DNA from: Deltaproteobacteria bacterium RIFCSPLOWO2_12_FULL_60_19
GTDB lineage: Bacteria > Desulfobacterota > Binatia > UBA9968
Direction: 5' to 3'
DNA: 48,141 nucleotides
Assembly: GCA_001798595.1 (NCBI GenBank)
Contig: MGSS01000107.1
Span: 16,356 to 64,496 of the forward strand
In this document: one piece after another, positions 3,180-45,975 of the stretch
Layout of the letters: each line of letters opens with the position of its first letter
How positions within the stretch are numbered: position 1 is the stretch's first letter
Translations under genes and position numbers: made by a program
Notes under the pieces: model-generated
Database searches by the model: none
Seen by the model: only the letters and a program-made list of their open reading frames with translations
What the model was told of the DNA's origin: nothing

Positions 3180-3941
3180 CTACCACTCAGCCGTTTCGCG
3201 CCAGGGGGCGAGCTTCTGTTCCGCCTTTTTGATCAGCGTGAAGCTTCCCATCCCCATCCCCGCGAGGAGAAGCACCGTCACAAAGAGCTTGGGGCTGTCC
3301 CAGGTTTCCGACGCGTCTCGCAGGAGATAGCCCAAACCGGCGTTGGCGGCCATCAGCTCCGCGACGATCACTCCAAGCATCGCCCGGCCGACTCCCAGCC
3401 GCATTCCCGTGACGATGTAGGGGAGCGCCGCCGGGAGGCGGATCTTAAAGGTGTTTTGCCGGGGATTGAGACGCAGCGACTTGGAGAGTTCCAGCCAGGT
3501 GGGATCGATGTTTTTGATTCCCGCCGCGGTATTCAACATGATGGCGACAGCGGTGATCTTGAACACCACGATCACCTTCGAAACCATGCCGATGCCGAAC
3601 CAGATGATGATGAAAGGCACGAAGGCCACGACGGGAATGGAGTAAAGCGTTGCGATCCACGGATCCATCACGTCGTCGAACCATTTATACCGGCCCATGA
3701 AGTAGCCGAAGAGGATGCCGACGACGCAGGCCGTGCTGAAGCCGCAGACGAACTCGAAGAGGGTGGCGAGGAGATGCTTGTTGAGCTGGCCGGTCGCGCC
3801 CAGCTCCCATAGCGTGCGGAGGACGCTGCTCGGCGGCGGAATGAGAAGCTCGTTCTCGAGCAGCAGGCGCGTCAAAATCTCCCACAGCGCAAGCCCGGCG
3901 AAAATCGAGACCAGACCGCGGCGGAGCTCTTTGCTAAGCAA
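3180..3941 (-). CDS. ABC transporter permease, NitT/TauT/SsuC family
   Basis: A 253-residue inner-membrane permease, first of the two in this cluster. Hydrophobic helices include GLALWEILTRLLL near residues 15-27, TACVVGILFGYFMG and LFVTVLLLAGMGMGSF. The cytoplasmic EAA-like loop is around LELSKSLRLNPRQNTFKIRLPAALPYI. Start is TTG at 3941, preceded by AGAGGTGA about 7 nt upstream. It begins 19 bp after the stop of the large TPR protein, so transporter and envelope proteins may be cotranscribed. The two permeases differ clearly, so this is not a recent duplication. Confidence 0.9.
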   Translation of the reverse strand: MLSKELRRGLVSIFAGLALWEILTRLLLENELLIPPPSSVLRTLWELGATGQLNKHLLATLFEFVCGFSTACVVGILFGYFMGRYKWFDDVMDPWIATLYSIPVVAFVPFIIIWFGIGMVSKVIVVFKITAVAIMLNTAAGIKNIDPTWLELSKSLRLNPRQNTFKIRLPAALPYIVTGMRLGVGRAMLGVIVAELMAANAGLGYLLRDASETWDSPKLFVTVLLLAGMGMGSFTLIKKAEQKLAPWRETAEW

Positions 3942-8825: not shown

Positions 8826-8887
8826 GTAGGGCGACCGGCCAGTCGCCCCTACTGTTGCCTTTGGCCTTACGCCTCTCGCCTGCTTAT
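8826..8887. repeat. Short palindrome plus CCTCTCGCC-type string
   Basis: 8826-8852 is an imperfect palindrome: GTAGG-GCGAC opposed by GTCGC-CCCTAC. It resembles the GTAGGGGC...GCCCCTAC element at 20391-20452. It is followed by GCCTTACGCCTCTCGCC, the same low-complexity type as at 1384-1415 and 43532-43616. The string runs into the last codons of the DHH gene. Confidence 0.6.
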
Positions 8888-9924
8888 TCTCTGATCGCTT
8901 CGAAGATCTCCCGGATGTGCTTCTCCGCTTCGCGTTTCGGCACGCGGCAGGAGCCGACGACGTGGTGGCCGCCGCCGCCGTGTTTTTCCATCAGCGCCCC
9001 GACGTTCACTTTGGAGGTCGTGTTGAAGATATTGTAGCCGACGGAGATCGCCGTGGCATTCGCACGCTGGGAATCGTCGCCGATCTTGAGCGAGATGTTG
9101 CTCCCCGGGAAGAGCGTGTAGAGCAAAAAGCGGTTCCCGTCAGGCAGATCTTTGACGCCGCGCAGATCGGTCACGATCACGTTGCCCCGTAGGGCGGTGC
9201 GCGCGAGCAGGATCTTTTTAAGTTTTTCCTGATCGTCCAGGATCTGGCGGCACCGTCTTGCAATCTCTGGGTCGGCGAGCGTCTGCTCCAACGAAGCCTC
9301 GCGCAGGAGCTCGATCAGCTTCATCCAGTAAGGCTCGTCCTCCGGCCGTTTCCCGTCGATGGTCATCGAGATCAGCACGTAGCCTTGCGGGTTGAGAACG
9401 TCTTCCCGGGTGAGCAGCGCGGCGTCGATCTTGTCCGTCTCCTCCAGCAGGAACTTGATCCGGTCCGAATTTAACACATCGGGTGTCGGGTGTCGGGTGT
9501 CGGGTGTCGGGTTTTGGGGAGGGGAACTCGCAACTCGAGACTCATGATTCGCCACCGAAGTGTAGTACTCGTAGACAACCCGCGCGGCGCTTGGGGCGAT
9601 GCGAAAGCCGCCCTTGCCGGGAACAATTACCGGGAATTGGGAATTGGGAGTTGGGGGTTGGGAACCCGGAACCCGGAACCCGGAACCCGGCACTCTTATG
9701 TGTTTTTCCCATGCGGGCGCGTTGGTGATGTGGTGGTCGAACCACAGCGTGCAGTTCGGATGGTAGGGAAGATTGGCGATGATATCGCCGGGGTGAATAT
9801 CGACCATGCCGTCCTGCATGAATTTCGGCTCGACGAAGAGAAAAGAATCGACGGCATCCTCCATCAGCGTGACGAGCGCGCCGCAGACCACTCCGTCGAA
9901 ATCCGCCCGCGTGACCAGTCTCAT
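8884..9924 (-). CDS. DHH-family phosphoesterase with two repeat-derived inserts
   Basis: 346 residues. Motif I is RADFDGVVCGAL (6-17), the DHH motif is D63-H64-H65, and the C-terminal DHHA1 nucleotide-binding signature GGGGHHVVG is at 316-324. This fits an exopolyphosphatase or oligonucleotide/nucleotide phosphodiesterase-like hydrolase; the exact substrate is open. Two low-complexity segments interrupt the family fold: about residues 77-99 (Pro/Gly/Ser-rich, VPGSGFRVPGSQPP) and 127-150 (SSPPQNPTPDTRHPTPD). The DNA there (9628-9696 and 9475-9546) is tandem GGGAATT / GGAACCC and GGGTGTC units in frame. The DNA shows insertion; whether the protein stays active is inference. It shares ATGA with the stop of alanine dehydrogenase. 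Confidence 0.85.
   Translation of the reverse strand: MRLVTRADFDGVVCGALVTLMEDAVDSFLFVEPKFMQDGMVDIHPGDIIANLPYHPNCTLWFDHHITNAPAWEKHIRVPGSGFRVPGSQPPTPNSQFPVIVPGKGGFRIAPSAARVVYEYYTSVANHESRVASSPPQNPTPDTRHPTPDVLNSDRIKFLLEETDKIDAALLTREDVLNPQGYVLISMTIDGKRPEDEPYWMKLIELLREASLEQTLADPEIARRCRQILDDQEKLKKILLARTALRGNVIVTDLRGVKDLPDGNRFLLYTLFPGSNISLKIGDDSQRANATAISVGYNIFNTTSKVNVGALMEKHGGGGHHVVGSCRVPKREAEKHIREIFEAIRE
9475..9546. repeat. GGGTGTC tandem string inside the DHH gene
   Basis: Four tandem GGGTGTC heptamers are followed by degenerate GGGTTTTGGGG and AACTCGCAACTCGAGACTC units. The stretch is in frame with the DHH gene and adds about 24 residues after residue 126. Confidence 0.85.
9628..9696. repeat. GGGAATT / GGAACCC tandem string inside the DHH gene
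   Basis: Units run GGGAATT, GGGAATT, GGGAGTT, GGGGGTT, then four GGAACCC units: a gradually drifting heptamer array. It is in frame and adds about 23 residues just after the DHH motif region. Confidence 0.85.
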
Positions 9925-12135: not shown

Positions 12136-12514
12136 AGAATTGCGACCTCCGCCGATGACGTGCTCTAACGAGCATACATCGTAGTTCAAACAGGCATACT
12201 GTGCAAGGCTCGCAAAGGTTGACACAGTTAACCGCGTAGTGAAAGAATCTAGCTGCTTGGCGGGCGTGCATCGAACGGAGGCCGTATGGCTGTCTTGGAG
12301 AATGTGGTTGTGCCGAAGAATTCCGGCAAAGCGTTTATCGTGAAGAAAGGACAAAAATTGCGCGTGGCGGGGGGTGCGCCGGCAGTGCGGAGAGAAATAC
12401 TTCGGTCTCCCGTGTGAGGCTGCAGGGCCGATTCTGAGTCCATAGGGTCCCAGACAGTCAGCCGATCGAAGACGAGCTCCCTAAGTTCCTGCTCGTCCGG
12501 GTCCACATAATAGA
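12136..12514. other. Gene-free stretch holding a duplicated DUF1989 promoter and 5-prime end
   Basis: 379 bp. The left part is upstream of the antitoxin. 12219-12371 repeats the promoter and first 29 codons of the gene at 13637. 12372-12514 reads on the minus strand as SAVVYYVDPDEQELRELV in one frame, without a convincing start; this may be a remnant of a lost gene. GC is lower than in the flanks. Nothing else is recognised. Confidence 0.6.
12286..12371 (+). pseudogene. 5-prime fragment of a DUF1989 gene
   Basis: ATG 12286 opens MAVLENVVVPKNSGKAFIVK and continues to LRVAG, identical in protein to the start of the DUF1989 gene 1.35 kb downstream. Similarity also covers the upstream GGAGG site and a TTGACA-containing promoter. 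After codon 29 the match stops abruptly and the frame has no family sequence. It is a partial duplication or a remnant of a deleted paralogue. Confidence 0.85.
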
Positions 12515-13299: not shown

Positions 13300-13636
13300 C
13301 TTTATGAATCCCGGACACTTTCTCCTTCTTTGGAGCGCCTAAAGGCACTTGGAGAAGTTTTAGAGCAACGGCCATGCCAGCCTAGAAATATCAATCAGAT
13401 CACATAGTTATAAGACGCTTGCCAGCTGGAGGTAGACAAAAAGTATTATGGGTGGGGAAAATTTACTCGTTTGGACGGGGGGCCGGCGAGGTGCTTGCCG
13501 GGTTGTCAAGCTAATATGTATCCTTTATTTCAAATTGGATTGCGTGGCGCTCAAGTCGAATGCGCGGACGTTGACAGCGCTCGCAGCATCATGGACAATC
13601 TTTCCGCTTGGCAGGCGTGAATCGAGGGGAGGCTGT
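13300..13636. other. AT-richer divergent intergenic region
   Basis: 337 bp between the small acidic gene (minus) and the DUF1989 gene (plus). The right end carries a promoter-like TTGACA. The middle is AT-rich compared with the flanking genes. Nothing else is seen. Confidence 0.5.
13571..13599 (+). promoter_or_regulatory. Candidate sigma-70-type promoter of the DUF1989 gene
   Basis: TTGACA (13571-13576), 17-nt spacer, GACAAT (13594-13599). The same arrangement is preserved in the duplicated copy (TTGACA at 12219, AAGAAT at 12243), which supports its being functional. Confidence 0.55.
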
Positions 13637-14275
13637 ATGGCTGTCTTGGAGAATGTGGTTGTGCCGAAAAATTCCGGCAAAGCGTTTATCGTGAAAAAAG
13701 GCCAAAAATTACGCGTGGCCGGAAGAACGGTGGTCGATTTCGTCGCGTTCAATCTGCACAACCTGAGAGAAAGATTCGATCAGGCGCGGACCAAGACCAA
13801 TCAGGTCAAAATATTTATCAGCGCGGGCGACCAGCTGATCTCGAAGCTCAACAATCCGCTGCTCACGATCGTCGAGGATACGTTCAAAGAGGGCAGCCAC
13901 GATTTACAGAAGGGGATGTGCAGCAAAACGAGATTCGAGCTGGTGGCCAAAGGATTGGCGCAGAGAAAGTTCGCGGAAGGAGTCGATATGAACCCGCAGA
14001 GGCCGGAAGACATTCCCGATCACGGCTGCTGGGAGAATTTGAGCGAAGCGTTAAAACCCTGGAATATCCCGCCGGAAGATATCCCCAGCCCGTTCAACAT
14101 TTTTCAGACCATGCGCATCGATCCCGACACGGGCGCGATGTTCGACACGATGATTCGCCCGGAAACCGAAGCCCACGTTGACTTTCGAGCGGAGATGGAC
14201 TGCCTGGTCGGCGTGAGCGCCTGTCCCCAGTCGGGAAGGGGAGAGCCGGTCCGGGTGGAGATATTCGACGGCTAA
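13637..14275 (+). CDS. DUF1989 / urea-carboxylase-associated family protein
   Basis: 212 residues from ATG 13637, preceded by GGGGAGG; longer in-frame starts lack a ribosome site. Family blocks: VVDFVAFNLHNLRERFDQAR (31-50), HDLQKGMCS, PDHGCWENL, PSPFNIFQTM and LVGVSACPQ. Members are soluble and often found beside urea carboxylase or amino-acid/purine catabolic genes; biochemistry is poorly known. The conserved Cys residues in GMCS and HGCWENL may bind metal. A second, more distant paralogue lies at 16629-17258. An N-terminal fragment copy lies at 12286. Confidence 0.9.
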   Translation: MAVLENVVVPKNSGKAFIVKKGQKLRVAGRTVVDFVAFNLHNLRERFDQARTKTNQVKIFISAGDQLISKLNNPLLTIVEDTFKEGSHDLQKGMCSKTRFELVAKGLAQRKFAEGVDMNPQRPEDIPDHGCWENLSEALKPWNIPPEDIPSPFNIFQTMRIDPDTGAMFDTMIRPETEAHVDFRAEMDCLVGVSACPQSGRGEPVRVEIFDG

Positions 14276-14291
14276 CATCGCGCAAAAAACA

Positions 14292-15059
14292 GTGATGGCA
14301 GTCAGAATCATACGTAAAGCGTGGCCGCTTCTCGGCGCGCTGGCGGCGCTCTCATCCTGCATCGCATCGGCCCCGCCGGTCCGGGTGCGAGTGGCCTATC
14401 AACGGCCTGCGGTCGAGCTCTATGCGTTCGAGCATTTTAATTCCAGCGACGGGAAGCCATGTCCTCGGCTTGAGGCGGGCGCGGGGGCGCCCGAGCTGGC
14501 CGCCGTGCCGATCGTCTCGGTGCAGTCTCCGCCGGAGCGGCTGTCCGAGAAGTTTCACGAGGCGATCATGGAGGCCGAGGCGCGCTACGAGAAAAAGGAA
14601 TTTAAGCAGGCGGTGGAGTTGCTGGAGCCGGTCTATCGGGCGGAGCCCGGGAATCGCTTTGTCATAGAGACCTACGCCAGAAATCTCTTTCGGCTGGGCG
14701 ACTACCGCCGCAGCATGGAGCTTTACAGCGGCCTGGTCAAAGGGTTGGACGAAAAAAAGAGTTGCCGGGCCAAGCTCCTCATCGACCCGTGGTTCATGGA
14801 TGCCTATTGGAAAAAAGGGCTCATGCACCTGGCTCTGCGGGAATGGCGACCGGCGGCGTTCGAGATCAGCCGGGCCTATAACAACCTGAACCACCCTGTC
14901 CTCGTCGACCAAGCTCTCAGCTACCTGACCGCGGCGTTCTTCAATCTCGGCGACCACGATGTGGCCTGGTACTACTCCCAACAGGCCCTGCGGCACAATC
15001 CTAAGAACCAGTACGTGCTGAAATACATCGAAGCGATGAATCTCGGCGTAAAGAAGTAA
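14292..15059 (+). CDS. TPR-containing lipoprotein
   Basis: 255 residues. The signal sequence LLGALAALSSC has a lipobox Cys near residue 23. Residues 85-250 hold tetratricopeptide-like helices: EAEARYEKKEFKQAVELLEP, NLFRLGDYRRSMELYSGLV and AFFNLGDHDVAWYYSQQAL. Start is GTG 14292 or the adjacent ATG 14295. It follows the DUF1989 gene by 16 bp, so cotranscription is likely. It is probably an outer-membrane scaffold; no specific role is known. Confidence 0.8.
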   Translation: MMAVRIIRKAWPLLGALAALSSCIASAPPVRVRVAYQRPAVELYAFEHFNSSDGKPCPRLEAGAGAPELAAVPIVSVQSPPERLSEKFHEAIMEAEARYEKKEFKQAVELLEPVYRAEPGNRFVIETYARNLFRLGDYRRSMELYSGLVKGLDEKKSCRAKLLIDPWFMDAYWKKGLMHLALREWRPAAFEISRAYNNLNHPVLVDQALSYLTAAFFNLGDHDVAWYYSQQALRHNPKNQYVLKYIEAMNLGVKK

Positions 15060-15061
15060 GC

Positions 15062-15251
15062 GGGCGGTTGAAAGAGGGCCATCTACCGTCAGCCCGCCCG
15101 GAAATCTCTCTCCGGGCCGACGCGATACGTCGATGTTACGCTGCGGCTAATAAATGAGAGTAGCTGGGAGGTACGATTGATGCTCCTCGTCCCACGCATC
15201 GGCCCTCCGAGAGACCCCCGGGCGGGCGGTAGTGATGGTTAAGGCTGGAGT
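15062..15251 (+). repeat. Palindromic element A, copy 1
   Basis: Core 15083-15233 with imperfect terminal arms of about 38 bp: CTACCGTCAGCCCGCCCGG...CTCTCTCCGGGCCGACGCG opposed by CGCATCGGCCCTCCGAGAG...CGGGCGGGCGGTAG. The interior has conserved GCGATACGTCGATGTTACGC and CGTCCCACGCAT blocks. It lies between convergent genes. Related copies are at 21384 and 44640, and a fragment at 36949. Confidence 0.85.
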
Positions 15252-17687: not shown

Positions 17688-17822
17688 CAGGCTGGTGAAA
17701 AACCTTCCGTTCACCCTTCGACGGGCTCAGGGCGAACGGAAGAAGGGCTGAAAACACTGAAGATTTTCCGTTCGTGCTGAGCTGGTCGAAGCACGAGAAT
17801 CACTTTTTCAGCAACCTGCCAG
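17687..17822. repeat. Palindromic repeat with TTCGAC...CTCAGGGCGAACGG core
   Basis: Outer arms: GCAGGCTGGTGAAAAA opposed by TTTTTCAGCAACCTGCC. Inside are two hairpins: CCGTTC...GAACGG around CCCTTCGACGGGCTCAGGG, and TCGTGCT...AGCACGA. The CCTTCGAC..GCTCAGGGCG motif recurs at 34176-34213. It begins at the last base of the BON stop codon and may act as terminator for that gene. Confidence 0.75.
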
Positions 17823-20452: not shown

Positions 20453-20543
20453 ATGACTGCCGAATCACAGGCTTCTTTGACAGCATTCTCGCTTTCCTTT
20501 AAAAACTTTGGTTGATTCAACTAAGGGCGGAAGGGGGATTCCG

Positions 20544-21380
20544 ATGCTCAAACCGATAGGACTCAGCCACGGCCACTACGAGTGCCGCTCTCTGGCCGAG
20601 ACGCTGCCGATTTTTACCGAGATCTTGGCCCTCGAGGTGCGCGAGCGCACCAACGGGCAGGCGGTTCTCAAGCATCCCAATACGGATTGGCTGCTGGTCG
20701 TTCACGAGGGCGGACCCGACGCGCGTAACAAGCCGCACAACAACCACTACGGCTTCCGCGTCGCGCACCACGAAGAGATCGAGGGGGCGTGGAAATATCT
20801 CGAAGCGAACAAACAAAAGTACGGCATCAAAATGGTCACCAAGCCCCACGAGGCCCACTTCGCCTATTCCGTTTACTTCAAGGAGCCCGGAGGCAACGAC
20901 CTGGAGATCGAATACTACAATCCGCGAGCCGCCGAGCACGGCCGCGCGATCGCCGCGCCGCACTGGAAAACGACGCTCGTAGAAGAGCGCTTTCCGGGGC
21001 GCGGCTACGTTCCGCAAGCGATGACGCACGGCACGCTGCAGTGCGACGAAAAGGCGCCGAGCGACAAGTTCTACGAGCAGGTGTTAGGACTCAAGATCGT
21101 GGGCGGCGGGCGGCAGTCGAGCTACATCAGGCACCCGTCCACTCCCTGGTACATCGTCGTGCTGCCGGGAAGACAGCGCGAACATCTTGCGCCCGTAAAC
21201 CGCTTTACTTTAAAAGTGGCGACGGCGGATGAAGTCGAACAGGCCCATCGCGAGTTCAAATCCAACGGGGCCAACCTCGGAATCACGGAGGTCTGGGATC
21301 TGGAGCAAAAGAACGGCCAGATCTCTTTTATCTTCAGCGATCTCGACCGCAACTGGTGGGAAGTAACGGCGACCGTGTGA
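20544..21380 (+). CDS. Two-domain VOC protein (extradiol dioxygenase-like)
   Basis: 278 residues from ATG 20544 (GGAAGGGGG upstream); an earlier TTG in frame is less likely. The N-terminal domain, about 1-128, carries a possible complete metal triad: His 9 or 11 (GLSHGHYECRS), His 68 (NNHYGFRV) and Glu 121 (GNDLEIEYY). The C-terminal domain, about 158-278, has His 162 and Glu 273, but Arg 220 at the second His position. In classical two-domain extradiol dioxygenases the C-terminal domain is the active one, so this is reversed. It would cleave or isomerise a dihydroxy-aromatic or related compound; the substrate is unknown. Confidence 0.82.
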   Translation: MLKPIGLSHGHYECRSLAETLPIFTEILALEVRERTNGQAVLKHPNTDWLLVVHEGGPDARNKPHNNHYGFRVAHHEEIEGAWKYLEANKQKYGIKMVTKPHEAHFAYSVYFKEPGGNDLEIEYYNPRAAEHGRAIAAPHWKTTLVEERFPGRGYVPQAMTHGTLQCDEKAPSDKFYEQVLGLKIVGGGRQSSYIRHPSTPWYIVVLPGRQREHLAPVNRFTLKVATADEVEQAHREFKSNGANLGITEVWDLEQKNGQISFIFSDLDRNWWEVTATV

Positions 21381-21778
21381 CGACAGGCCGCTGAAAAAGG
21401 CCTACCTACCGTCCACCCGCCCGGAAATCTCTCTCCGGGCCGATGCGATACGTCGATGTTGCGCTGCCCCTACGATGTCTGAGTTGCCCCGTAGTACGAT
21501 TGGCACTTCGCGTCCCACGCATAGGCCCTGCGAGAGACTCCCAGGCGGGTGGGGGACGATAGTTTCGTTTGACCTGCCTCGCTCGACATACGCGCTCTCG
21601 AACACAAGCCACAAGCCGCTCGCGGGGTTGCGAGCTGCGGAAAAACTTCCCGCAGGCCGCTCAAAAAGGTCCCAGATACAAGGCGCGCGAAGGTCCGCGA
21701 GCGGAGGCGTACTTTTTAGTACGTTGACGCGAAGCGGGCCGAGCGCAACGCCGTAGATGGGCCTTTTTCAGCGGCCTG
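21381..21778. other. Gene-free convergent region filled with two repeat families
   Basis: 398 bp between convergent stops. Element A copy 2 fills 21384-21562, and element B fills 21652-21779. Between them, 21616-21640 forms a small hairpin CCGCTCGC...GCGAGCTGCGG. No coding sequence is seen. It probably terminates transcription from both sides. Confidence 0.7.
21384..21562 (+). repeat. Palindromic element A, copy 2
   Basis: It begins CAGGCCGCTGAAAAAGGC, then core 21406-21562 with arms CTACCGTCCACCCGCCCGG and CCCAGGCGGGTGGGGGACGA. Relative to copies 1 and 3, the arm G-C pair at GCCCGCC/GGCGGGC is A-T here (ACCCGCC/GGCGGGT), a compensatory change. Interior blocks GCGATACGTCGATGTTGCGC and CGTCCCACGCAT are kept. 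Confidence 0.85.
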
Positions 21779-21779
21779 C
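21652..21779. repeat. Palindromic element B, 128 bp
   Basis: Outer arms GCAGGCCGCTCAAAAAGG and CCTTTTTCAGCGGCCTGC. The interior has nested complementary runs, with CGTACTTTTTAGTACG at the centre. The CAGGCCGCTGAAAAAGG end is identical to the left end of element A copies 2 and 3. Similar elements of about 120 bp are known to me from other former Deltaproteobacteria. It reaches into the stop codon of the alpha/beta hydrolase gene. Confidence 0.85.
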
Positions 21780-22870
21780 TACTCCAGCTTGCCGCGCAGC
21801 CATTTGAGGATAGTCGGAAACGTCTCCGGCGTGTTGCCCATGTGGCCGCCGGGAAAGAAGCGCGCCGCCTTCGGCTCGCCGCTCTCCAACAGAAGATAAA
21901 AATCCTCGATCGGCACCTGCTTGTCCTCTTTCCCGTTGACCAGCAGCATCGGCGCGCAGGGTTTGTCCAGCCAGCCCTGATCTTTAAGAGAAAGCGCGGG
22001 CATGGCCCGGACCAACTCCTCGAAGGTCCGTTTCCCGAACAGGTTCGCGCGCGCCTCGATCAGGTCGAACAGATAAGAGGGCGCGTTGCGCGATTTTTCC
22101 TGCCACTCCGGCTGGAAAAAATAGTGAATGCCGCCGCCCCAGTTGACCGCCGCGCGCACCCGCTCGCGGTCAACATGAGCCACCTTTGTCGCCCAGTAGC
22201 CGCCGAAGCTCGATCCCACGACGGCGATGCGGCCGGCGTCGACCTCCGGCCGGGCGCAGAAGTAGTCCAGCGCGGCGCTGTAAACCTTGTGGGCTTCAGG
22301 CGACGCGAGCATCGGGCATTCGCCCGTGCCGGGACCGTCCATGACGAAGCAGCCCCAGCCATCGCGGAGAAAGGCCTCCGCGAACGAGTGGCGCTCCTCT
22401 TTCCAGCCGTCGATGCCGCCCCAATGGAGAATCAGCGGCGCCGGCCTCTTCGCCGGCAGGCGAAGATAGCCGACGACGGCTTTGCCTTCGAACGGGATCG
22501 CCACTCGCTCCAACGGCGGATCGAAGAAGCGCGCCGCCGCCAGATACATCTCGCGCGTCTTGCGATAGGCCTCCATCTTGCCCGGCGAGCTGGGAAATGG
22601 GTGGCGGCCGATCCCGTAGTAAGTGTAAGCTTTGAGATAAGCTTGTTTGATCTTTTGCGGGTCGCCGCTTTTCTCTTCGGCCCGCGCCTTCTCCTCCCAG
22701 CGGGCGCCGAGCCTGCTCCAGGCGGCGGCCCACGGTTCCGGCTCGACGCCGTTCAACGACGCGAGCGCCTCTTCGGATTCGTTCTTGTCGGCGAGCACGA
22801 AAGGGGCGCGGTGGCCGATGCGGCTGCGAATATCCTCTTTGATCTCTTCTAGAGTTCGCGGTCTGTCCAT
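21779..22870 (-). CDS. Alpha/beta hydrolase, FrsA / dihydroxypseudooxynicotine hydrolase-like
   Basis: 363 residues. A helical N-terminal region of about 120 residues precedes the hydrolase fold, as in FrsA and in C-C bond hydrolases of pyridine and aromatic degradation. Nucleophile Ser 221 is in VGSSFGG, Asp 316 in VNGKEDKQVP, His 343 in PGGHMGN. The oxyanion segment is LHWGGIDG. Start ATG 22870 follows GGGGTGAAAGC. It precedes no further gene but is cotranscribed with the ornithine-cyclodeaminase-like gene 10 bp upstream. C-C or ester hydrolysis is inferred; the substrate is not known. Confidence 0.85.
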   Translation of the reverse strand: MDRPRTLEEIKEDIRSRIGHRAPFVLADKNESEEALASLNGVEPEPWAAAWSRLGARWEEKARAEEKSGDPQKIKQAYLKAYTYYGIGRHPFPSSPGKMEAYRKTREMYLAAARFFDPPLERVAIPFEGKAVVGYLRLPAKRPAPLILHWGGIDGWKEERHSFAEAFLRDGWGCFVMDGPGTGECPMLASPEAHKVYSAALDYFCARPEVDAGRIAVVGSSFGGYWATKVAHVDRERVRAAVNWGGGIHYFFQPEWQEKSRNAPSYLFDLIEARANLFGKRTFEELVRAMPALSLKDQGWLDKPCAPMLLVNGKEDKQVPIEDFYLLLESGEPKAARFFPGGHMGNTPETFPTILKWLRGKLE

Positions 22871-36867: not shown

Positions 36868-36948
36868 CTTCGACTCATTATGCCCGCTATTCTACACCAT
36901 CTCAATAATCATCGGCCGTCTTTGGCGGAAAACATAGAGGGAGCAGGT

Positions 36949-36978
36949 AGGCCCGGAGAGAGATTTCCAGGCGGGTCC
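36949..36978 (-). repeat. Element A left-arm fragment, inverted
   Basis: GCCCGGAGAGAGATTTCC followed by AGGCGGG is the reverse complement of the element A left arm. The right arm and interior are missing. It lies between the zinc-ribbon gene start and the binding-protein-like gene stop. Confidence 0.7.
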
Positions 36979-43525: not shown

Positions 43526-43531
43526 AAAAAT

Positions 43532-43616
43532 CAGGCGAGAGGCATGAGGCAACAGGCGAGAGTTGGAAGAAACTGTCTTAACTCAAGCCTCACGCCTGTC
43601 GCCTCTCGCCTATTTC
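43532..43616. repeat. Inverted GGCGAGAGGC / GCCTCTCGCC strings
   Basis: AGGCGAGAGGCATGAGGC and CAACAGGCGAGAG on the left; CCTCACGCCTGTCGCC and TCTCGCCTATT on the right. The two halves are rough inverted copies around AACTGTCTTAACT. Same unit as at 1384-1415 and 8860-8887. They lie between the LLM gene stop and hyuA. Confidence 0.65.
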
Positions 43617-44626
43617 TGTGCGAACAACTCCAGCACGCGCTGCGTTTGGTGGTTGGCCGCCGGCCGCAATAATGGAATCTTGACGCCGGCGTCGCGGTAT
43701 TGCTGGACCCGCTTCTTCACTTCGTCGGGCGTTCCGCTCGCCGTCATCCCCTCGACGTAGGAATCGGGAATCGCCTTGATCAGTCCCTCCATGCCGCCGG
43801 CGGCGTGGGCCTTTTCGAAGATCGGAATATCTTCTTTCCTTATATACGGCTCGCCGACGCGCATCTTGGGACCGGCGATGAAGGAGATCTGCACCGGGTC
43901 GAGCTTGGTGGCGACCTCCCAGCGCATCTGGTCGAGCGCCTTCTTATGATCGTCTTCGATCGAGCAGTTGATGATCTGCGCGACTTCGAACTTCGAAAAA
44001 TCCCGGCCCGCGGCCTCGGCCGCCGTTCGGATAATCTTGAGCGCGTTGACCGTGTATTCGGGCGAGCAGACGGCATTCAAGACAACGCCGTCGGCGACCT
44101 GCCCTGCGAGCTTGAGTCCCGTCGTGCTCGTCGCCGGGGCATAGATGGGAATGAACGCGCGAGCCGGCTGCCATCCGAGGCCGACGTTGTCGAAATTAAC
44201 GTACTGCCCGTGGTAGGAGACTTTTTCTCCGCTCAGCAGCAGGCGCATCGACTCGATATATTCCTTCAAGACCTGCGCCGGCGTGGCGCTTACGTTCGGA
44301 TCGAGGGCGTGCACTCTGGCGTGGCTTTTGGTGCAGGCGCCCGGCGCGAGCGTCATGCGCCCGCCCGTCAACTCGTCCAGGCTCGCCAGCGACTGGGCCA
44401 TGACGAGCGGGCTGCGCAACCGCACGATCTGCGTCGAGCCCAGGATCAGCCGTTTCGTCGCCAGGCCGATGGCCGCGAGCGCCGTGACGGAGTCGCGCAT
44501 GATCTCGATCGTCTCGGAGAAAAAGGCCATTTCATAGCCCCGCTCCTCCGCCTGCTGCATCAAGGCGGCGATCTCTTTTACGTTCGTGAACTTCCCATAC
44601 CCTAAAGCAAAACCTACTCGTGCCAT
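43610..44626 (-). CDS. LLM-class flavin/F420-dependent oxidoreductase
   Basis: 338 residues. Luciferase-like TIM barrel of the MER type: MARVGFALGYGKFTNVKEIA; GYEMAFFSETIEIMRD; LATKRLILGSTQIVRLRSPL; LDELTGGRMTLAPGAC. Such proteins use F420 or FMN to reduce or oxidise small molecules. Start ATG after AAGGAGTAGG. It precedes HyuA in the same direction, with a repeat string between them. The cofactor and substrate are not determined. Confidence 0.9.
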   Translation of the reverse strand: MARVGFALGYGKFTNVKEIAALMQQAEERGYEMAFFSETIEIMRDSVTALAAIGLATKRLILGSTQIVRLRSPLVMAQSLASLDELTGGRMTLAPGACTKSHARVHALDPNVSATPAQVLKEYIESMRLLLSGEKVSYHGQYVNFDNVGLGWQPARAFIPIYAPATSTTGLKLAGQVADGVVLNAVCSPEYTVNALKIIRTAAEAAGRDFSKFEVAQIINCSIEDDHKKALDQMRWEVATKLDPVQISFIAGPKMRVGEPYIRKEDIPIFEKAHAAGGMEGLIKAIPDSYVEGMTASGTPDEVKKRVQQYRDAGVKIPLLRPAANHQTQRVLELFAQK

Positions 44627-44639
44627 TCCTACTCCTTGT

Positions 44640-44829
44640 CAGGCCGCTGAAAAAGGCTCATCTGTCGTCAGCCCGCCTGAGAATCTCTCTCCGGGCCGAT
44701 GCGATACGTCGTTGTTACGCTGCCTCCAAAAACTGAGAGTATCTCTGAACTACGCTTGTATCTCCTCGTCCCACGCATCGGCCCTTCGAGAGACCCCCAG
44801 GCGGGCGGTAGCGATGCTTGTAGCTGGAT
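44640..44829 (+). repeat. Palindromic element A, copy 3
   Basis: Begins CAGGCCGCTGAAAAAGGC; core 44662-44811 with arms CAGCCCGCCTGAGAATCTC and CCCAGGCGGGCGGTAG. GCCCGCCTG/CAGGCGGGC here replaces GCCCGCCCG/CGGGCGGGC of copy 1, a second compensatory change. The interior is conserved (GCGATACGTCGTTGTTACGC, CGTCCCACGCATCGGCCC). It lies between two genes of the same direction. Confidence 0.85.
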
Positions 44830-44844: not shown

Positions 44845-45834
44845 TTATTTTCCCCAGAGCTGCTTGTAGAAGCCGGAGGCGTCGAGCTCTTTGACGAAGC
44901 GGTCGTCGTAGAAACTCTCGGGCTTCGCGTCTTTGGCCTTGGGGTTTCGCGGCGCCGTGAGATTCAGCACCTCCTGAATGCCTTCGCGGGTGTTGTAGGG
45001 GATTTTGTCGATATAGTCGACGGCGTACTGGTAGACCGCGTCGATCGTTCTTGCGTCGTCCGTGCGGACGTATTTTTTGATCGCGCGGCGGCTGCCTTCA
45101 GGATCGGCGTGTAGTTTGTATACCGCTTCGGAGTAGGCCTTGAGAAATCGTCGCACCAGATCCTCGTTGGCGCTGAGGAAAGCGCGGCGCGCCATAAATG
45201 CGTCGTGGGGGAAGTAGACCCCTGCCTTCCCCATGTTCATCAGTACTCTCGCGCCCGCCTCTTCGGCGCGAAGGTTCGTCGGGCTGGAAAACGGCGCGGC
45301 CACGATGGCCTTGGTGCGCAGCATCGCGGCGGCGGCGAACAGATCGCCGGTCTGGATCAGCGTCACGTCCCGAACCGGCTCCAGTCCATGTTTGCGCAAA
45401 ACGTAGCGCATCGTGAAGTCCGTGGAGGAGCCGAATCGCGTAACTCCGACGATCTTCCCGCGCAGATCCTCGATCGACTTAATCTCGGGCAGAGCCATGA
45501 TGTAAAAGGCCGGCACTCGGACGAGCGCGCCGAACATCGTCATGTCCGCGCCGGCGAGACTCGCGTCGACCGAGGCGCTGCCGGCGGCGGCGGAGATCGG
45601 CAGATCTCCTCCCAGCATCGATTGCACCATGAGCGAGCCCGAAGCGATCAGCACGAGATGCGAGTCGATGTTGTATTTGTCGAAAAGTTTCGCCTCGTGG
45701 GCGATCCAGAGTCCGGCGAAAACGCCGCTCGCGCTGGTGTATCCTATCACCAAACGGTCCTTCGCCTCGGAAAGCGTGATCCAGGAGCCCGATAGGAACA
45801 GGGCAACGGCAAGCGCGGCGATTTGTCTTTTCAT
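44845..45834 (-). CDS. NitT/TauT-type substrate-binding protein
   Basis: 329 residues from ATG 45834 after GGAGGG; upstream frame is not coding. Signal peptide about 1-24 (IAALAVALFLSGSWITLSEA). Family segments: RLVIGYTSASGVFAGLWIAH, DLRGKIVGVTRFGSSTDFTM, and KPESFYDDRFVKELDASGF at the end, shared with the protein at 33108. No transporter gene is adjacent. The divergent neighbour is an amidohydrolase, so ligand and substrate may be related; this is inference. Confidence 0.88.
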   Translation of the reverse strand: MKRQIAALAVALFLSGSWITLSEAKDRLVIGYTSASGVFAGLWIAHEAKLFDKYNIDSHLVLIASGSLMVQSMLGGDLPISAAAGSASVDASLAGADMTMFGALVRVPAFYIMALPEIKSIEDLRGKIVGVTRFGSSTDFTMRYVLRKHGLEPVRDVTLIQTGDLFAAAAMLRTKAIVAAPFSSPTNLRAEEAGARVLMNMGKAGVYFPHDAFMARRAFLSANEDLVRRFLKAYSEAVYKLHADPEGSRRAIKKYVRTDDARTIDAVYQYAVDYIDKIPYNTREGIQEVLNLTAPRNPKAKDAKPESFYDDRFVKELDASGFYKQLWGK

Positions 45835-45857
45835 GGTCTTACCCTCCGTCAGGTCAC

Positions 45858-45884
45858 AATATAATAGCAGGTCGCTACCCTCAA
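45858..45884 (-). promoter_or_regulatory. Candidate promoter of the binding-protein gene
   Basis: On the minus strand TTGAGG (45884-45879) and TATATT (45863-45858), 15-nt spacer, 24 bp before ATG 45834. A TTGACA also lies further upstream (45900-45895) without a matching -10. Confidence 0.35.
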
Positions 45885-45975
45885 AGGGAAATCCTGTCAA
45901 CTCTTGCAGGGCTTCCGTGCTCGTGCTCGGCATTCGTGCTCGTGCGGTTTTCACGAACACGAACCATGCTTCGGT

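Follow-up and report, generated by a model that had tools for sequence, protein, structure and literature searches.

A stretch of 48,141 bp (the window; G000:C107:16356-64496, from a source genome of 4.19 Mb in 162 contigs) contains palindromic segments whose two arms differ from copy to copy by matched changes. This raises the question of what the segments are, whether a structured RNA, a non-autonomous mobile element or some combination of the two, and of what keeps their arms paired.

Three copies of a palindromic repeat in the window

The three copies reported in a first-pass annotation at 15062-15251, 21384-21562 and 44640-44829 were recovered at those coordinates, all on the + strand, with both the paired arms and the conserved interior blocks described there; the quoted arm changes were also seen, as ACCCGCC/GGCGGGT in copy 2 and as an eighth pair which is C-G in copy 1 and T-A in copy 3. 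A search of the window for the 30-base block AATCTCTCTCCGGGCCGAYGCGATACGTCG gives exactly three occurrences (0 expected, 100 dinucleotide shuffles), and the RNA fold of copy 1 was calculated at -85.7 kcal/mol (z = -2.2 versus shuffles). The count of three holds for the window but not for the genome, in which approximately 75 copies were found, and 15062-15251 is one palindrome in its core but not throughout, as 15062-15084 and the equivalent positions of the other copies are the left end of an outer MITE.

In copy 1 this left end is decayed (GCGGGCGGTTGAAAGAGGGCCATCT; 15062-15084, +) and lies directly 3' of the TAA stop of ORF 14292-15059; the hairpin core, GCCCGCC...GGCGGGC, follows at 15092-15227 (+) and matches covariance model R1, built from alignment A2 of 41 copies from the source genome, at 15085-15238 with 178.6 bits. 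Copy 2 begins with the left end CAGGCCGCTGAAAAAGGCC... (21384-21407, +), 3 nt after the TGA stop of ORF 20508-21380, and its core at 21415-21550 (+; R1 match 21408-21562) carries the compensated base stem given above. Adjoining it on the - strand is an 'empty' outer MITE of 126 bp (21653-21778), which has both CAGGCCG ends and no core. In copy 3 the left end is at 44640-44663 (+) and the core at 44671-44806 (+; R1 match 44664-44817, 177.3 bits; arms 44671-44703 and 44774-44806), flanked by the minus-strand ORFs 43610-44626 and 44845-45960. A half copy on the - strand (36931-36975) consists of the 5' arm alone (ACCCGCCTGGAAATCTCTCTCCGGGCC...), the 3' arm having been lost.

Copy number and distribution

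Model R1 identified approximately 57 strong and 18 weaker or altered copies in the source genome. When it was run against this genome and 57 relatives, matches were obtained in 11 genomes, the source genome itself and 10 relatives, of which nine belong to its family and the tenth to its order; presence is patchy across the related genera. A consensus pattern scan of 84,980 species genomes gave matches confined to a small group of MAGs named Deltaproteobacteria or Proteobacteria, while the same type of scan of IMG/VR viral contigs and a Blast search of a plasmid collection gave no match. There were 0 gathering matches to Rfam 15 within the window and no relevant Rfam match at E<=10 for six related loci. 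The first-pass annotation had not recognised the family, and none of the Rfam, plasmid or viral collections contained it; the repeat is a previously unlisted, lineage-specific, non-coding and dispersed family.

Organisation of the hairpin core

The core extends from GCCCGCC to GGCGGGC over 136-138 nt, the window copies having 136 nt, and consists, in order, of a base stem, an A-A/C-C internal loop, a TCTCTC/GAGAGA helix, a second internal loop, a GGGCCGATGCG/CGCATCGGCCC helix and a large terminal region with the conserved blocks GATGCRATAC..TGTTRCGCTG and CTCGTCCCACGCATC. The base stem of 7-11 bp is free in sequence and mostly paired, and other genera, which share the composite of MITE and core, have GCCGGCC/GGCCGGC in place of GCCCGCC/GGCGGGC. 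In the two internal loops the mismatches are fixed and the unpaired positions conserved. A mutual-information scan of the joint alignment was dominated by type-B loops (see below) and subfamilies, and gave no clear extra helix.

The tree of the copies is star-like. Over all pairs of copies the conserved blocks differ by 8.4% and the interior by 30.9%, the blocks changing 3.7 times more slowly; between mutually nearest pairs the values are 4.7% (20/427) and 10.5% (39/371), a 2.2-fold difference. The slower change of the blocks fits either constraint after insertion or long-lived active lineages.

No sign of translation was found in the core: third positions show no excess variability and synonymous fractions are similar across all frames, so that it lacks the translated frame of the Rickettsia-type coding palindromic elements. 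A small peptide on the minus strand was also considered, as a frame of 36-46 amino acids is open in 35 of 38 copies. This reading was rejected because the corresponding count in column shuffles is 31, variability is no higher at third positions, and a 19-nt deletion in copies from other genera shifts the frame.

An outer MITE carries the core

The outer MITE is approximately 150 bp when empty, with terminal inverted repeats CAGGCCGNTGAAAAAGG on the left and CAGGGTGTTGAAAAA on the right, the latter as read in elements with an extended end. 'Empty' elements of 126-128 bp, bounded by CAGGCCGNTGAAAAAGGCCCATCT and CCTTTTTGACCGGCCTG, were found in the window and in the genome, and better kept elements are longer on the right side by approximately 24 nt (AAAACAGGGTTTTTCAACACCCTG), the end of which mirrors the left end. 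The end CAGGCCGNTGAAAAAGGCCCATCT lies 23-24 nt upstream of the core in about half of the copies, the MITE left end being found upstream in 57 of 112. The element is short, multicopy and mostly intergenic, in addition to its terminal inverted repeats (the codon tests described above were made on the core).

Within the MITE the core occupies one fixed place in one orientation. No inverted core was found there, because the sole matches on the other side (L017 and L110) read CCTTTTTGACCGGCCTG, which is the MITE right end; in one element (L041) the core is reduced to its base hairpin. The constant position and orientation point to one capture event. Since the composite is common to several genera, the core would have been captured long ago, and would have spread with the MITE from then on.

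Exact 4-bp direct repeats were found around three elements (TCAA/TCAA, CAAG/CAAG and TTTA/TTTA). Among 19 elements these three were joined by four in which the flanks match at 3 of 4 positions, the remainder being unmatched (P ~0.004 by re-pairing), and duplications are visible solely in the better preserved elements. Judged from these flanking sequences, a 4-bp target duplication of the outer MITE is probable. An IS630-type element with a TA duplication was the first idea and was superseded by the 4-bp duplication once the ends had been resolved. No clean pair of filled and empty sites with alignable flanks was found, and no boundaries could be placed at candidate empty sites because the homologous intergenic regions are too diverged.

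The first-pass annotation had suggested a non-autonomous mobile element, and this suggestion is supported: the repeat is dispersed, multicopy and non-coding, and is carried by a MITE which has terminal repeats and, probably, 4-bp target duplications. On the basis of these duplications, cut-and-paste mobilisation in trans by a candidate DDE transposase is proposed, which the data support but do not prove. Among the PF01609, PF13358 and PF01797 transposase genes of the source genome none was found with matching ends, and the DDE_Tnp_1 gene at C90 likewise lacks them.

A second short palindromic element, at 17688-17818 of the window, has related ends (CAGGCTGGTGAAAAACC...CACTTTTTCAGCAACCTG) and a different interior; several MITE families may share one transposase.

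Position behind stop codons

In 23 of 45 cases in the source genome and in 11 of 23 in related genomes, a long ORF terminates with its stop codon 0-3 nt ahead of the MITE left end, compared to 0.8% of random positions; genes were called with a simple ORF rule, so the distances between MITE and gene are approximate. Two facing genes in the window show this arrangement: copy 2 follows the stop of its plus-strand ORF, and the left end of the nearby empty MITE directly adjoins the TAG which ends ORF 21779-22870 on the minus strand. Copies more often share the orientation of the upstream gene than oppose it (42 same and 23 opposite in the source genome, 17 same and 9 opposite in relatives). A TA-rich target such as CTAG would account for the preference for stop codons.

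At a probability of roughly 70%, the core is best explained as a lineage-specific palindromic module which hitchhikes on a MITE, coming to rest in 3' untranslated regions. It is built of two modules, the hairpin core and the outer MITE that carries it at a fixed place in one orientation, and copies behind stop codons would be transcribed as 3' untranslated hairpins. These hairpins may alter the ends or the stability of mRNAs, as for ERIC and Correia elements; location and precedent make a role at mRNA 3' ends plausible.

A different weight is given to the same position if the core is taken as a functional structured RNA or mRNA 3'-UTR element selected at each site, the MITE being merely its distributor. 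The + strand would be transcribed from MITE left ends which follow stop codons, the core remains intact while the MITE ends decay, and the constraint on the conserved blocks extends to the nearest-neighbour pairs. Both orientations occur relative to adjacent genes, however, the related genera are only patchily occupied, and well-kept copies are favoured by model-based searching. The pattern of arm changes, considered next, also bears on this explanation, which on the whole is judged unlikely.

Covariation and the maintenance of arm pairing

Compensatory double changes were seen at 11 of 30 pairs in the 41 copies of A2, compared to 2.0 +/- 0.8 in shuffles and no more than 2 in slid controls. 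In the 7-bp base stem, 56 type-A copies from the source genome gave 9 Watson-Crick doubles, 4 wobbles and 5 mispairs, where 0.3 doubles were expected and the maximum in 5000 shuffles was 3. The pair 11-142 also varies between genera, with C-G in 57 copies and G-C in 24. Arm pairing is real and kept.

It had been claimed from the three window copies that covariation means that pairing itself is selected. The pairing and the strong covariation stand, but the claim as worded goes too far: covariation here is no proof of selection on RNA, because G-U wobbles are not favoured over A-C mismatches on the + strand and template switching can give the same pattern. Over all helices, modelled on the + strand, there are 31 G-U and 73 A-C cells, the opposite of the trace expected from selection on a plus-strand RNA, though this count is an indication only because inherited changes are included. 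It tells against the structured RNA, in favour of which is the occurrence of covarying stems together with blocks and mismatches that are conserved.

One-step double changes arise without selection when the template is switched between inverted arms (PMC8794818, PMC8604942), a process which also homogenises arms and inverts spacers (PMC8604942). The concerted arm changes could be purely mutational, replication having copied arm onto arm with pairing unselected. With this published precedent agree the excess of base-stem doubles over wobble intermediates (9 versus 4) and the type-B loop described below, which occurs in both orientations, spacer inversion being a known outcome of template switching (PMC8604942). 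A purely mutational process should, however, also have homogenised the fixed internal mismatches, and the T.C mismatch (columns 27/125) stays unpaired in all 93 copies; the type-A loop is inverted in 0 of 48, and the conserved blocks are still constrained. As a complete account this is doubtful. Since the 27/125 mismatch persists, unlike what pure arm homogenisation would leave, constraint on the core fold is likely, acting as RNA, as DNA or through mobility alone. For the hitchhiking module, template-switch homogenisation and selection on the fold may jointly maintain pairing.

Loop exchange and solo cores

In approximately 14 copies both arms are kept, but another repeat of the source genome (type-B) takes the place of the loop, and it was found in both orientations with respect to the arms; inverted type-A loops were not found (0/48). 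Arms which persist around an unrelated loop are a further point against a structured RNA selected at each site. The type-B loop is itself a separate AT-rich repeat (AGATTTGAGATCTG...), present inside hairpin cores and alone in the source genome, e.g. at L156:1668-1762.

Solo cores without a MITE were found in several genera (L113, L114, L088, L131 and L107), so the MITE is not the sole carrier. Their base stems are very different and yet paired, e.g. CTGCCTGG/CCAGGCAG in L113 and CAGGCGGGC/GCCCGCCTG in L131. A master ncRNA gene with orthologous solo copies was considered and rejected, as the solo copies adjoin unrelated genes. The solo cores of L113 (element 3609-3761) and L114 (2215-2368) are followed by a second hairpin (CCGAGGGGAGCG...CGCTCCCCGAGG), and in L113 an 8-bp repeat, TCTAGAAG, apparently lies on either side of the core and second hairpin, an arrangement that would represent a different carrier. 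Beside a solo copy in a related MAG is a TPP riboswitch (L087 1347-1463, - strand; Rfam RF00059, 79 bits).

Solo cores could also arise if the hairpin itself were mobile as single-stranded DNA via an HUH/Y1 transposase, in the manner of REP/RAYT systems, and had jumped into MITEs. A base stem that is paired though free in sequence would suit such a process, and three Y1_Tnp (RAYT-like) genes with open frames of approximately 290-340 codons are present in the source genome (L179, L180 and L181). No core copy was found at any of these three loci, however, and a link to RAYTs was accordingly rejected. REPs and BIMEs resemble the repeat as dispersed intergenic hairpins, but REPs measure 20-40 bp and carry an unpaired foot of four nucleotides, GTAG or CGTC (PMC3733652), while the core is 136-138 nt with conserved loops. 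Given also the constant orientation and position in the MITE, which point to one capture, mobility of this kind is improbable.

A broader proposal is that the core represents a structured nucleic-acid module of a new class, as RNA or extruded DNA, whose fold and two fixed mismatch loops are recognised by a cellular or transposition factor, and which is selected at dozens of sites, swaps loops and rides different small transposons; this is regarded as speculative and rather unlikely. The module hitchhiking on a MITE into 3' untranslated regions remains the preferred reading.

Relationship to known elements

By published descriptions (PMC2229807), the repeat appears to work like elements of the Correia/ERIC kind. 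The Correia (NEMIS) element of Neisseria is a short non-coding MITE with a form of ~107 bp and one of ~155 bp that contains an internal insert (PMC2229807). Smaller and larger forms, intergenic location and terminal repeats are points of likeness, as would be folding transcripts and the probable target duplication; as described, the host and ends differ, the insert there is an IHF site and not a 136-138 nt hairpin with conserved loops, and here the target duplication looks to be 4 bp and the core also occurs outside the MITE. ERIC (RU-1) and YPAL (RU-2) of the enterobacteria are intergenic, palindromic elements of ~127-168 bp that are co-transcribed with their neighbours, and orientation-dependent effects on mRNA were shown for ERIC (PMC2229807). 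Going by these descriptions the empty MITE body is also similar at ~127 bp, but the hosts are different, and here the terminal repeats do not form the long hairpin, which is an internal module in its own right. CIR elements of Caulobacter and Brucella are likewise multicopy intergenic repeats with a conserved fold and an exposed conserved motif (PMC2229807), but have two arms with a linker and GANTC sites in place of one long hairpin.

The family adds an unlisted, richly covarying repeat from an uncultured lineage, and its two-module build is unusual: a hairpin with fixed loops, a free and mostly paired base stem and an exchangeable loop, set in a mini-transposon behind stop codons. With approximately 75 copies per genome and occurrence in several genera, it forms a natural data set on whether selection or template switching lies behind compensatory changes in hairpins, a question for which individual RNA genes are poorly suited. 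A further lesson is that covariation within a repeat does not on its own provide evidence of a functional RNA.

Other repeats were noted in the window. A 126-nt direct repeat, 90% identical, is present at 12246-12371 and 13597-13722, 1351 nt apart, and short repeats of the GGCGAGAGGCAATAG type occur in direct and inverted arrangement at 1378-1415, 8848-8888 and 43526-43619.
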